Assembly (NCBI RefSeq): GCF_003970695.1
Contig: NZ_CP034570.1
Coordinates: 3,162,001-3,226,000, forward strand
DNA from: Maribacter sp. MJ134
GTDB taxonomy: Bacteria > Bacteroidota > Bacteroidia > Flavobacteriales > Flavobacteriaceae
Direction of reading: 5' to 3'
DNA: 64,000 nt
Shown here: piece after piece, positions 30,935-34,676 of the stretch
Layout of the letters: each line of letters begins with the position of its first letter
Position numbering within the stretch: position 1 is the first letter of the stretch
Notes under the pieces: model-generated
Database searches by the model: none
Told to the model about the DNA's origin: nothing
The model's input: only the letters and a program-made list of their open reading frames with translations
Translations under genes and position numbers: made by a program

Positions 30935-31516
30935 ATGAAAGAATTACTCTCAGAAATTAGAGCTTGTCAGGTATGTGCGCCACACCTTCCATTAGAGCCT
31001 AGACCTATTATAGCTGGAAACAAGAATTCAAAAATTATATTGGTGAGTCAGGCTCCCGGGAAGAAGGCGCATGACCATAATAAGGCTTGGGACGATCCTA
31101 GCGGAAGAAAATTACGAGAATGGTTGGGCGTAACAGCAGAACTATTTTATAATCCAGATAACTTTGCGGTGCTACCAATGGGTTTTTGTTTTCCAGGTAA
31201 GGCCAAAACAGGAGATTTACCTCCGAGAAAGGAATGTGCTCCGCTTTGGCACAATTTGGTTTGGGAGCAATTTAAAAATGTACAGTTAATACTTTTGATC
31301 GGGAAGTATGCTCAGGGCCAATATTTAAAGGAAACCGCTAAAAGAAATTTGACCGAAAACGTGCGGTCCTTTCAAGAGTTTCTACCTAAATATTTTCTGC
31401 TGCCCCACCCTTCCCCTGTGAACCGTTTTTGGATACGTAAAAACCCCTGGTTTGAAGATGAGGTTGTGGGAGAGTTAAGGGCACTAGTGCGTGCAATTCT
31501 AGCTGAAACGGTATAA
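30935..31516 (+). CDS. Uracil-DNA glycosylase family protein
   Basis: 193 residues: an N-terminal CQVCAPHLPL Cys pair, the substrate-pocket block ILVSQAPGKKAHDH, the DDPSGRKLREWLG block, VLPMGFCFPGK and the C-terminal LPHPSPVNRFW motif. This matches the UDG superfamily (COG1573-like); only one Cys pair is visible, so a 4Fe-4S cluster is doubtful. It would remove uracil or a related base from DNA. It lies 9 bases after the DUF819 gene. Confidence 0.83.
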   Translation: MKELLSEIRACQVCAPHLPLEPRPIIAGNKNSKIILVSQAPGKKAHDHNKAWDDPSGRKLREWLGVTAELFYNPDNFAVLPMGFCFPGKAKTGDLPPRKECAPLWHNLVWEQFKNVQLILLIGKYAQGQYLKETAKRNLTENVRSFQEFLPKYFLLPHPSPVNRFWIRKNPWFEDEVVGELRALVRAILAETV

Positions 31517-31552: not shown

Positions 31553-31648
31553 TTGTCGACAAAAAAAGACATTTTTTGTAATTTTTGTCTACAGAAAAAG
31601 ACATTTTATTAAATTTTTGTCGATATGAAAAGACAATTTTTTATATTT
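31553..31648 (+). repeat. Three tandem 32-bp imperfect repeats with internal TGTC...GACA dyads
   Basis: Three units begin TTGTC at 31553, 31585 and 31617 with a period of exactly 32 bases. Units 1 and 2 agree at about 27 of 32 positions, units 1 and 3 at about 25. Every unit holds TGTC-N10-GACA as a dyad, followed by AT-rich sequence. The array runs straight into the candidate -7 box of the ATPase gene, so it may be an operator array for that gene. A plain AT-rich tract would not keep such a fixed period and dyad. Confidence 0.75.
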
Positions 31649-31649
31649 G
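31617..31649 (+). promoter_or_regulatory. Candidate promoter of the AAA_14 ATPase gene
   Basis: TATATTTG at 31642-31649 fits the -7 consensus exactly. The TTG that opens the third 32-bp repeat (31617-31619) is 22 bases upstream, at the long end of the allowed spacing. The start codon follows 20 bases after the box. The promoter is thus embedded in the repeat array. Confidence 0.55.
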
Positions 31650-31668
31650 AGTAGTAAATTTCACCTAA

Positions 31669-32868
31669 ATGGACGAATTATTCTCAACTCAGGAGCAACT
31701 TTTGGAACATGTTAGTAGTAAACAACGCTATCTTCTAACAACAATAGACTGGAGCGATAGGCTCATTGCAATTAAAGGGGCTAGAGGTTCGGGTAAAACA
31801 ACGCTATTAATTCAACATATAAAATTTAATTTAACCAAAGAAGCGGTACCGCTTTATGTTTCCTTAGACAATCTTTACTTTATAGACCATACCTTAATAG
31901 AACTTGCAAAGGAATTTGTGCTTCAAGGCGGGACACATCTTTTCTTGGACGAAGTACATAAATATCCTCAGTGGTCCAGAGAACTAAAATTGGTTTACGA
32001 TCAATTCCCTAAACTCAAAACAGTATTCACTTCGTCATCAATGCTGGAAATTTATAAAGGTGAATCAGATTTAAGTAGAAGAGTTGTAAATTATCACTTA
32101 AAAGAACTTTCATTTAGGGAATTTATTCTTTTTACAAAGGGTTATCATTTGCCAAAAGTAAGCTTGCAAGAATTACTTGAAGAGCACCATAATATAGCCA
32201 AAAAAGTAAAAGAAGACTTGCAGCATCCTCTTAAAGATTTTAAGGCTTATTTGGATTATGGTTGTTATCCTTATTTCTTAGAAGGAACAAATAACTATTT
32301 GCAAAAATTGCTACAAACCATTAATCTAATATTGGAAATAGACTTCAACGCTATTGAAAACATACCCTATTCCGATAGCAGAAGAATAAAAAAGTTGCTA
32401 GTAGCCATAGCGCAATCGGCACCCTTTTCTCCTAATGTTTCAAAACTTAGTGAGCGTTTGGGTATGTCAAGGGATTTTTTGTTGAATTCAATAAAGTTGC
32501 TAGAAAGGGCGGATTTGGTTATAGAACTGTTTAAACCAACCAAAGGAATAGGGGCATTTACCAAACCTGAAAAAATATATCTAAATAACACTAATTTAAT
32601 AAGCGCTTTGAGTAGGCATATTCAAGAAATTGGCACTATAAGAGAAACCTTTTTTGCCAATCAGTTCAAGAACTTAAATGATCGTGAAATTCACTTAGCC
32701 GAAAAAGGAGATTTTTTAATTGATAGAAAGTACATATTTGAAATTGGAGGCAAAGGAAAATCCACAAATCAGATTAAAGGATTAAAAAATGCTTATGTGG
32801 TGCGAGACGATATTGAAATAGGGAATTTAAATAGTATCCCTTTATACCTGTTCGGTTTACTTTATTGA
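31669..32868 (+). CDS. AAA_14/DUF4143 family ATPase
   Basis: 399 residues. The N-terminal AAA domain has Walker A GARGSGKTT (about residues 37-45) and Walker B THLFLDEVHKYPQW, then sensor-like TVFTSSSMLEI and LKELSFREFILF. The C-terminal part (about 250-399) is a winged-helix DUF4143-like region, with LSERLGMSRDFLLNSIKLLERADLV and a final IGGKGKSTNQIKGL that resembles the nuclease-like fold (E-x-K) of the family. Family members are frequent in bacteria and archaea and their function is unproven; a toxin/defence or DNA-handling role is often suggested. It is preceded by the three-repeat array and followed by converging small genes. No partner gene is seen. Confidence 0.85.
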   Translation: MDELFSTQEQLLEHVSSKQRYLLTTIDWSDRLIAIKGARGSGKTTLLIQHIKFNLTKEAVPLYVSLDNLYFIDHTLIELAKEFVLQGGTHLFLDEVHKYPQWSRELKLVYDQFPKLKTVFTSSSMLEIYKGESDLSRRVVNYHLKELSFREFILFTKGYHLPKVSLQELLEEHHNIAKKVKEDLQHPLKDFKAYLDYGCYPYFLEGTNNYLQKLLQTINLILEIDFNAIENIPYSDSRRIKKLLVAIAQSAPFSPNVSKLSERLGMSRDFLLNSIKLLERADLVIELFKPTKGIGAFTKPEKIYLNNTNLISALSRHIQEIGTIRETFFANQFKNLNDREIHLAEKGDFLIDRKYIFEIGGKGKSTNQIKGLKNAYVVRDDIEIGNLNSIPLYLFGLLY

Positions 32869-32896
32869 AAAATTCTCGTCCTTACAAAAAGCGTTA

Positions 32897-33061
32897 TTAT
32901 CTAAAAATACTTCTAATTTCCAACACTCTTTCAGGAAAGAAAAGTAGCAATATAATAGAGGGTATTACGATAGGGAGGATGACCCAAAAAACCAATAAAC
33001 GAATTGATTTGTAAAGATATTTACCTGTGAAGTTTGGTAGTATTTTAATTTCTGGATTCAT
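32897..33061 (-). CDS. Small membrane protein (54 aa)
   Basis: A complete frame (ATG 33061, TAA 32897) encoding 54 residues: a polar start (MNPEIKILPNFTGKYLYKSI), one hydrophobic helix (about residues 22-42, VFWVILPIVIPSIILLLFF) and a short charged end. Its ATG lies inside the 3' end of the upstream 65-aa gene (17-base overlap, other frame), the coupling pattern of real bacterial operons. It converges on the ATPase gene. No family is known to me. Confidence 0.5.
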   Translation of the reverse strand: MNPEIKILPNFTGKYLYKSIRLLVFWVILPIVIPSIILLLFFPERVLEIRSIFR

Positions 33062-33242
33062 GTCTTACAATTTTATGCATGACCTTAGTTATTAAAGAGG
33101 TCCTTTTTCTTTCAATTTTCCCAATCTCTTTTAAAGTTGCTTTAGGATAGGCAAAACGATAAAACAATAGTCTAAGTAATTTCTTTATATCCATCACATG
33201 CAATAAAAGTGCTATTCCTACCAGTATATAATATACCTCCAT
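33045..33242 (-). CDS. Small membrane-anchored protein (65 aa)
   Basis: 65 residues: one N-terminal membrane helix (about 4-18, YYILVGIALLLHVM), then a basic cytosolic tail (KKLLRLLFYRFAYPKATLKEIGKIERKRTS). It forms an overlapping pair with the 54-aa gene and both lie opposite the ATPase gene. The pair may act at the membrane; no family or toxin resemblance is certain. Confidence 0.5.
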   Translation of the reverse strand: MEVYYILVGIALLLHVMDIKKLLRLLFYRFAYPKATLKEIGKIERKRTSLITKVMHKIVRHESRN

Positions 33243-33488
33243 AACCTAAAATTATATTTATTCGAATTTCGTGTATCTCATGATATCTCCGTGTAACATG
33301 AAGAAAAGACGATAATAAAATTTAACTTCCATTACATCCGAAAAAACAAAACAATTCTAAACGCTAAAAAAAGAAGCTTTTTTGTCTGTTTTAAATTCTT
33401 GTTCTCAGGTCTATATCATGTACATTCAAAATTAGTGAGTCAATTCTAATCCAATAGGGGAATAATTTCCAGTATGGCATTTTAAAAG

Positions 33489-33515
33489 AAAAACCCCGCC
33501 AATCGGCAGGGTTTT
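33489..33515 (-). terminator. Terminator after the CMD-family gene
   Basis: The stem AACCCTGCC with GGCGGGGTT around GATT is followed on the minus strand by a T-rich stretch; on the plus strand it is followed by a T run too, so it may work in both directions. It lies 26 bases beyond the stop of the 33542 gene. Confidence 0.7.
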
Positions 33516-33541
33516 ATTTTTTTATCTAAAAGTCCAGTTAT

Positions 33542-34144
33542 CTAATAACGAGAACCGTCATGTTTCCCTTTCTCCCAACCATGTTTGCCCAAATATTGGT
33601 TGGCACTATCTACGGCACCTTCTTCAATATCCGTTCCTTGGCTGTCGTTCCATCGGTTAAGATATCCAAAGAGTGATATTACCCCGAGCATTTCTACAAT
33701 TTCGCCTTCGTCCCAATGTGTATAGAGTCGGGCTTTAATCTCCGCATCAACGGCGTTGGGTACTTGTGATGCCTGTAAAGAAAAATCCAGAGCGGCACGT
33801 TCCGCTTCGGAAAAAGCGGGGTGAGTACGGTACTCCCAAATATTATCCAGTTGCTCCTGTTCTGCACCATAACGCTCAGCAGCACGTATGGCATGCGCCT
33901 GACAATAGCGGCAACCCGTAGCATTACTACTTACCCAGGCGATCATCCGTTTTAAGGCCGAAGTTACACGACCTTCATTGGCCATTACTGCCATATTAAG
34001 GTTTATAAATGCCTTGGAGATGGCCGGTCTATGTTGCATGGTAAGTATAGAATTTGGGCAGAAACCAAGCGTTTCGTTAAAAAATTTGGCCAATTCTGCA
34101 GTTTCTGGGCTGTGACTAGGGTCAAGCGGTTTTACTAAGGGCAT
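33542..34144 (-). CDS. Carboxymuconolactone decarboxylase/peroxidase-related protein
   Basis: 200 residues with the AhpD/CMD core: SSNATGCRYCQAHAIRAAERYG carries the redox CxxC with the neighbouring His, preceded by ALKRMIAWV. The family includes AhpD-like thiol peroxidases and decarboxylases; the CxxC-x3-H pattern favours a peroxidase-related function. A DoD-like C-terminal extension (LGKHGWEKGKHDG) is polar. It is divergent from an osmC gene, another peroxide-handling family, which supports a redox role. Confidence 0.85.
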   Translation of the reverse strand: MPLVKPLDPSHSPETAELAKFFNETLGFCPNSILTMQHRPAISKAFINLNMAVMANEGRVTSALKRMIAWVSSNATGCRYCQAHAIRAAERYGAEQEQLDNIWEYRTHPAFSEAERAALDFSLQASQVPNAVDAEIKARLYTHWDEGEIVEMLGVISLFGYLNRWNDSQGTDIEEGAVDSANQYLGKHGWEKGKHDGSRY

Positions 34145-34216
34145 ATAAAGATTTTATTATACGAAAACCTCTTGTTCCGTTGCTTAGCATCGAGAAGTTT
34201 TCTAGTTAGATAATTG

Positions 34217-34224
34217 TATTTTTG
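34217..34224 (+). promoter_or_regulatory. Candidate -7 box (TATTTTTG) for osmC-like gene
   Basis: TATTTTTG matches TAnnTTTG exactly and lies 24 bases before the OsmC-family start codon. No clear TTG partner at 17-23 bases upstream is seen, so the call is moderate. Confidence 0.45.
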
Positions 34225-34247
34225 TAATCTACAAGAAACAAAAAATT

Positions 34248-34676
34248 ATGGGTACAACAAATCATATCAGCACCAAATGGTTAGGAAATATGGCTTTTGA
34301 GAGCAATAATCCTTCTGGACATCATGTAAAGATAGATATCGCCACAGAAGATGGTGGGGATAGTAGTGGGCTGCGGCCAAAAGCGCTCATGCTTTCTTCT
34401 TTAGCGGGTTGTTCAGGATTGGATATTGCAGGACTCATCAAGAAAATGAAGCTAGAGGTCGATGAATTTCATATCGAAACCATTGCCAATCTTACCGATG
34501 AGCATCCGAAGTATTATTATAAAGTAGAAATCGAGTACCATTTTCATGGAAGTAACCTAAAAGAGGACAAATTACAACGTGCAGTAGATTTATCCGTAGA
34601 GAAATATTGTGGGGTCATGGAAATGTTCAGACGGTTTGCCGAGTTGGAGATTAAAACCGTGTTTCATAACAAGTAA
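34248..34676 (+). CDS. OsmC family protein
   Basis: 142 residues covering an OsmC/Ohr domain: the GLRPKALMLSSLAGCSGLDI block holds the peroxidatic Cys and the C-terminal VDLSVEKYCGVMEMFRR the second Cys of the family. It would reduce organic hydroperoxides with two cysteines. It is divergent from the CMD-family gene and is followed by the repeat-flanked four-helix-bundle gene. Confidence 0.88.
   Translation: MGTTNHISTKWLGNMAFESNNPSGHHVKIDIATEDGGDSSGLRPKALMLSSLAGCSGLDIAGLIKKMKLEVDEFHIETIANLTDEHPKYYYKVEIEYHFHGSNLKEDKLQRAVDLSVEKYCGVMEMFRRFAELEIKTVFHNK

Follow-up and report, generated by a model that had tools for sequence, protein, structure and literature searches.

What binds a row of phased dyads lying directly ahead of an orphan ATPase gene, and does this row serve the gene itself? 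The question is raised by a locus of Maribacter sp. MJ134 within the stretch of 64,000 nucleotides that was analysed as a whole, hereafter the window. The array consists of three direct 32-bp units, with start-to-start steps of 32 and 32 bp, each holding one 18-bp TGTC-N10-GACA dyad (Table 1). TTGTC and AAAAGACA are in register across the three units, the pattern TTGTC-N6-AAAAGACA being matched 3/3 with zero mismatches, and the tandem score is equalled by 0/200 dinucleotide shuffles (p = 0.005). These units had been proposed in a first-pass annotation made from the letters alone, and the three-unit 32-bp dyad array at the ATPase promoter is confirmed as real.

Table 1. Positions of the array, the promoter box and the ATPase gene with its domains, counted from the first nucleotide of the window
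Feature	Position	Strand	Remarks
Repeat unit 1	31553-31584	+	dyad TGTC-N10-GACA at 31554-31571
Repeat unit 2	31585-31616	+	dyad at 31586-31603; 84% identity to unit 1
Repeat unit 3	31617-31648	+	dyad at 31618-31635; 78% identity to unit 1
TATATTTG	31642-31649	+	fits the TAnnTTTG -7 box
AAA_14 ATPase, 399 aa	31669-32868	+	resembles PADLOC PDC-S01
AAA_14 domain, residues 30-152	31756-32124	+	Pfam match
Putative winged helix, residues 234-287	32368-32529	+	three helices and a strand in the structure model
Putative recognition helix, residues 268-280	32470-32508	+	part of the putative winged helix
C-terminal alpha/beta domain, residues 321-399	32629-32865	+	invariant D348, E358, G360, G361, K364

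It is the combination of units that is unusual. The dyads are imperfect, with exact outer TGTC/GACA arms and an A-rich, asymmetric interior, and the best single 18-bp dyad of the window, taken alone, is not significant against shuffles (p = 0.11). With up to two mismatches, TTGTC-N6-AAAAGACA has 6 matches in the 64-kb window for 3.3 expected, i.e., near expectation, so that single weak units are not rare while the exact triplet is. Many unrelated copies in the genome would, according to the annotation, speak against an operator; a 23-mer derived from the three units has, at up to three mismatches, three sites in the 4,016,247-base genome, all within the array, without further copies (its reversed control has 4 matches). 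The shorter pattern TTGTC-N7-AAAGACA (12 letters) has eight exact genomic matches, five of them outside the array, and its 44 matches at up to one mismatch are not clearly above the 33 of its control.

The gene adjoining the array had been labelled AAA_14/DUF4143. The first half of this label holds, the protein passing Pfam AAA_14 (PF13173) with 89.2 bits for a curated cut-off of 27, whereas DUF4143 (PF13635) was not reported for it in the Pfam search at E ≤ 0.001; among its relatives, L043 and L054 pass DUF4143 and L039 does not. Seven PADLOC PDC-S01 models are also matched, with a best E of 3.9e-22 (PDLC04789, residues 29-306), as judged by E-value since no curated cut-off is given for PADLOC models. 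From these matches, the ATPase appears to belong to PDC-S01, a very common defence candidate. In the AlphaFold2 model (mean pLDDT 89.1), an AAA+ domain is followed by helices 234-250, 257-264, and 268-280, a strand at 284-287, and an alpha/beta C-terminus; the helices of 234-280 together with the strand can be read, in this model, as a winged helix or helix-turn-helix-like segment. The best PDB matches of the whole model in Foldseek are AAA+ proteins (RuvB, clamp loaders, DnaA), together with some STAND proteins. This whole-model search did not single out a PD-(D/E)XK domain in the C-terminus, in which D348, E358, and K364 are invariant.

No plus-strand ORF of at least 60 aa can be found between the UDG gene, which ends at 31516, and the ATPase gene, nor from 32868 to 34248. 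The distribution of the ATPase is patchy. At E ≤ 0.001, five of 40 genomes (its own among them) have a match, and besides the protein itself only a single match, from the same order, attains 50% identity; at E ≤ 1e-40, the order yields a match in 21 of the 395 genomes covered, again counting its own.

Whether such arrays accompany the family can be asked from genes collected by homology and not by repeats. A home-made AAA_14 profile matched 246 ORFs, of which 229 passed the rules (at least 330 aa, a Walker A near the start, an ATG, and 140 nt upstream) and 204 were kept after removal of near-identical ones; 137 neighbour genes, 134 of them non-redundant, served as controls. Significant tandem repeats (p ≤ 0.05) were found in 113/204 AAA_14 upstreams vs 12/134 neighbour genes, and the best lag was 32 or 33 bp in 114/204 vs 13/134 (Fisher p about 2e-19 and 3e-19, respectively). 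Among the 113 significant arrays, the lag was 32/33 in 85, 23 in 11, and 39-41 in eight. A significant array was absent from 91/204 upstreams. By group, as filed in the sequence records, significant arrays occur in 84/140 Bacteroidota and 29/64 others, and with one gene per 35%-identity cluster an average of 11.7 of 21 are significant and 9.8 of 21 have a lag of 32/33.

The subsets of this pool behave as follows: 50/86 upstreams are significant in the Bacteroidota subset (86 of 90 loci scored), 26/62 in ten genomes reached via homologue loci and mostly filed under other phyla (62 of 70 loci scored, some of them already present in earlier sets, a redundancy removed on pooling), and 14/19 at the level of the order (19 of 28 loci scored, nine lacking a gene by rule, and L182 and L191 sharing one upstream). 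Among the 36 close relatives examined first, a tandem repeat was significant in 25 and a single dyad in 14, and when lags of 26-42 bp were allowed, the best was 32/33 in 35 of 42 ATPase upstreams vs 23 of 138 neighbour genes. The four strongest matches of that first neighbour control included AAA_14 genes, two of them confirmed, which were taken out of the pooled control.

Arrays at lag 32 or 33 can also be found on three bacterial plasmids and one phage contig with an estimated start. Of three archaeal plasmid genes with 24-29% identity to the window protein, those of Methanosphaera and Methanomethylovorans have an array at lag 32 (p = 0.002 each) and that of the Thermococcus plasmid has none (p = 0.44). 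Several loci call for separate mention. The phage contig (L270; MT839230, an unverified phage scaffold) carries an ATPase relative with a strong 33-bp array. In the genome of L059 (filed as Spirochaetales), eight AAA_14 matches lie within 16 kb on both strands (G550:C19:67030-82805), forming a paralogue cluster whose tested members mostly lack a significant array. L037 is filed as Beijerinckiaceae with an ATPase like that of Pedobacter (L039), and its contig is possibly mis-binned.

Could chance, or the ordinary repetition of AT-rich promoters, be sufficient to generate these arrays? The 12 significant controls and the weakness of the best single dyad of the window would fit, yet none of these controls (0/12) has a lag of 32/33. 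A search for a different ATPase family supplied 36 loci, of which 20 were testable: two had significant arrays, at lags 23 and 30, none of the 20 had a significant 32/33 array, and in three the best lag was 32 without reaching significance; 11 of these 20 match the home-made AAA_14 profile at E ≤ 1e-6, which indicates that the profile is lax. PF09820, sought as a control of this kind, was too rare (6/61 genomes). Chance is thus disfavoured by the family-wide test, and also by the fit of spacing to the protein tree and by the UDG-locus comparison detailed below, to the point of being hardly credible.

Regarding the promoter, TATATTTG, into which the array reaches, fits TAnnTTTG, which we take to be the -7 box consensus of Bacteroidota promoters. 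The box starts 22 nt past the TTG of unit 3 (31617-31619), which, by the same consensus, is presumably a possible -33 element. Across the family, the second array copy ends a median of 17 nt ahead of the start codon, start codons being set by rule rather than annotation except in the archaeal/plasmid set and the Thermus gene, and estimated in phage contig L270. A TAnnTTTG box lies within the last 80 nt in 36 of 84 array-bearing Bacteroidota upstreams, where 6.4 are expected in shuffles (neighbour genes, 17/104), and in 25 of the 84 it is inside or abuts the array. The phased, promoter-overlapping operator array of the first-pass annotation is supported, and arrays of this kind are common in the family.

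The repeats might instead act as RNA, in the form of leader hairpins, a terminator, or an attenuator. The arrays of L028, L037, and L046 do fold better than shuffles (z of -2.7 to -3.9), as inverted repeats must, but z is -1.9 for the window, -1.0 for L020, and +0.6 for L021; neither a terminator-like site nor an Rfam match was found, and the units of the window lie upstream of the TATATTTG box. We regard a role as RNA as very improbable.

While the geometry is kept among homologues, the sequence is not. The annotation had envisaged the same repeats upstream of homologues: arrays can indeed be found at many of them, with 18-bp dyads such as TGTT...AACA, TGCA...TGCA, TGCT...AGCA, or TGAC...GTCA, and the word itself is not conserved. 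Together with the lack of further genomic copies of the 23-mer, this decides the refutation test set in the annotation in favour of the array. In 37 arrays from five genomes, copies within an array agree on average at 15.5-18.2 of 22 positions, whereas the best match in the upstreams of paralogues reaches 14.2-14.7 of 22 vs 13.5-14.7 in shuffled upstreams; own copies having been picked for likeness, the fair comparison is that between paralogue and shuffle. The words are private to each gene, paralogue upstreams matching about like shuffled DNA. What is looked for in a self-operator, namely phased dyads at the gene's own promoter and private to it, is found here. Dyad symmetry within the unit is significant in 62/113 arrays, with an even centre in 49 of the 62. 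Exact counts of 4- or 5-bp arms show an excess at several inner spacings (8, 10, 14, and others) and no sharp peak at N10, which is hence described for close homologues only.

Some arrays depart from this scheme. L008 (on the reverse strand, ahead of the ATPase gene) and L151 have direct repeats with TTGTTACA at lag 33 and no clear dyads, so that asymmetric sites may be what certain AAA_14 subfamilies recognize. The near-identical ATPases of L027 and L028 have arrays one 33-bp unit apart, suggesting that copy number changes quickly. In L182 and L191 (G461), the ATPase frame is broken by a stop, with an intact array (lag 32) ahead of it.

The array is tied to its gene in two further ways. Spacing class (23, 32-33, or 40) follows the protein tree, with 6 changes vs a shuffled mean of 19.4 (0/200 shuffles as low), as does the finer distinction between 32 and 33 (22 changes vs 29.7 shuffled). 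In addition, among 28 UDG loci drawn from 26 genomes of the genus, TGTY-N10-RACA dyads beside the UDG gene are confined to L286, the one locus with the ATPase, where there are two. They are absent from all 27 loci lacking it, four of which reach p ≤ 0.05 in the tandem score at other lags (21, 24, 28, and 45). The ATPase of L286 is 80% identical to that of the window, yet the dyad words differ. A word that varies by gene at constant spacing suggests that these genes are bound and controlled by their own products.

A separate host regulator could instead bind the array and control the ATPase gene; RptR (PMC12255303) is a known example of a distinct repressor acting on defence genes. However, if one regulator were shared, the word should be uniform, so that words private to each gene count against it, as do the lack of a second genomic site for the 23-mer and a spacing that tracks the tree of the ATPase. 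We consider such a regulator unlikely.

Is the ATPase itself the binding protein? Covariation between the putative recognition helix and the dyad was examined in 38 of 85 close relatives, namely those with at least three of four half-sites beginning TG, the other 47 being left out. With ancestry ignored, S267 is accompanied by T at dyad position 3 (16/17 vs 5/21), H267 by C at position 3 (6/6 vs 6/32), and D269 by C at position 4 (4/4 vs 2/34). In independent pairs, the directions are 3.4 same and 0.1 opposite of 6 for S267-T, 3 and 0 of 4 for H267-C, and 2.4 and 0 of 3 for D269-C, each too few for significance. Partial Mantel tests of dyad vs recognition helix are non-significant for 34, 23, and 19 genes (p = 0.31, 0.26, and 0.14), significance being reached only when the set is restricted to the best 17 arrays (p = 0.003). 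The covariation, non-significant once ancestry is controlled, is suggestive. Column variability was rejected as a signal of specificity: columns 269, 273, and 276 are at the 87th-96th percentile, but so are 285, 286, and 290 in the strand and loop that follow. Since the ancestry-controlled tests are mostly non-significant, we infer self-binding as the best-supported reading and do not count it as a result.

Taken as a whole, the interpretation given in the annotation is partly supported, and it can be hypothesized that the array is the operator of the ATPase gene, bound by the ATPase through its putative winged helix so that the gene represses itself, a reading we hold to be probable though well short of certain. 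ATPase dimers would grip the 18-bp dyads by means of this domain, and dimers on adjacent dyads, 32 bp or about three turns apart, would sit on the same side of the double helix, in mutual contact. Covering the promoter, they would shut down the ATPase gene, and a change in the nucleotide state of the ATPase, or its engagement elsewhere, might lift the repression; a stress or phage trigger, as raised in the annotation, is conjectural. With its own word for each family member, cross-regulation among paralogues would be avoided. Cooperating dimers repressing their own promoter are the simplest reading, activation being less likely.

The ATPase might instead bind the array for another purpose, the latter being an assembly or sensing site, i.e., an iteron-like self-address, or a site of promoter activation and not of repression. 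Phased arrays in steps of 23, 32-33, and 40 bp next to an AAA+ motor would suit such a site, as would the RuvB, clamp loader, and DnaA folds among the best PDB matches; against it, the arrays sit at the promoter, near the start codon, like operators, and we find this purpose rather improbable. A broader proposal, which we advance as doubtful, would unite the bacterial and archaeal AAA_14/PDC-S01 genes in a single large class of self-addressed motors. Each protein would read only its own phased array, with a step of about two, three, or four turns set by subfamily. The words would diversify, insulating paralogues and incoming relatives, and the array would be, beyond an operator, an address of self-recognition used to sense or exclude competing DNA.

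A recognisable, private site adjoining the gene makes the family testable, in terms of what the ATPase binds, what releases it, and which residues confer specificity, and private arrays would provide a natural series of matched protein-DNA specificities. PDC-S01, in which an ATPase is said to be joined to a domain of PD-(D/E)XK type, ranks fourth among the commonest defences of prokaryotes according to PMC12988326, with 9,986 cases in archaea and 29,494 in bacteria, its anti-phage role being unvalidated; in a rumen data set, no other single locus is reported to be as frequent (10,358; PMC13356809). In Thermus thermophilus, TT_P0211 (AAA 14, DUF4143) is reported to be 6.6-fold higher in the joint presence of plasmid and Argonaute (PMC4406477). 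On pTT27 of this species, an AAA_14 ATPase (L263:19854-21074, minus strand), which is probably TT_P0211 to judge by where it lies and how it is annotated, shows a perfect dyad of 17 bp directly before its start and no significant tandem array upstream (p = 0.57).

No comparable AAA_14 operator array was found in searches of the open-access literature, and several known systems offer partial likenesses. Iteron arrays of plasmid replication initiators are phased tandem sites beside the gene of a self-controlling DNA-binding protein, which the ATPase is here a candidate to be. The window gene differs in being a chromosomal orphan on a 4.0-Mb contig, with dyads at the promoter and no origin known; a plasmid iteron array proper was rejected, the single 4,016,247-base contig not being a plasmid and the adjoining gene being AAA_14 and not a replication gene. 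Autoregulated toxin-antitoxin operons and the controller proteins of restriction-modification systems have private self-operators at their own promoter, and the operator-like sites of the window resemble these, although they belong to a single AAA+ gene, apparently without a partner. As for PDC-S01, the single-gene defence candidate of PADLOC, seven of whose models match the window protein, no operator array is mentioned in the sections of PMC12988326 and PMC13356809 that describe it. RptR-type repressors of defence islands share with the present case the transcriptional control of defence genes; unlike RptR, which is a separate repressor in the section of PMC12255303 concerned, the regulated protein of the window itself has a likely DNA-binding domain.
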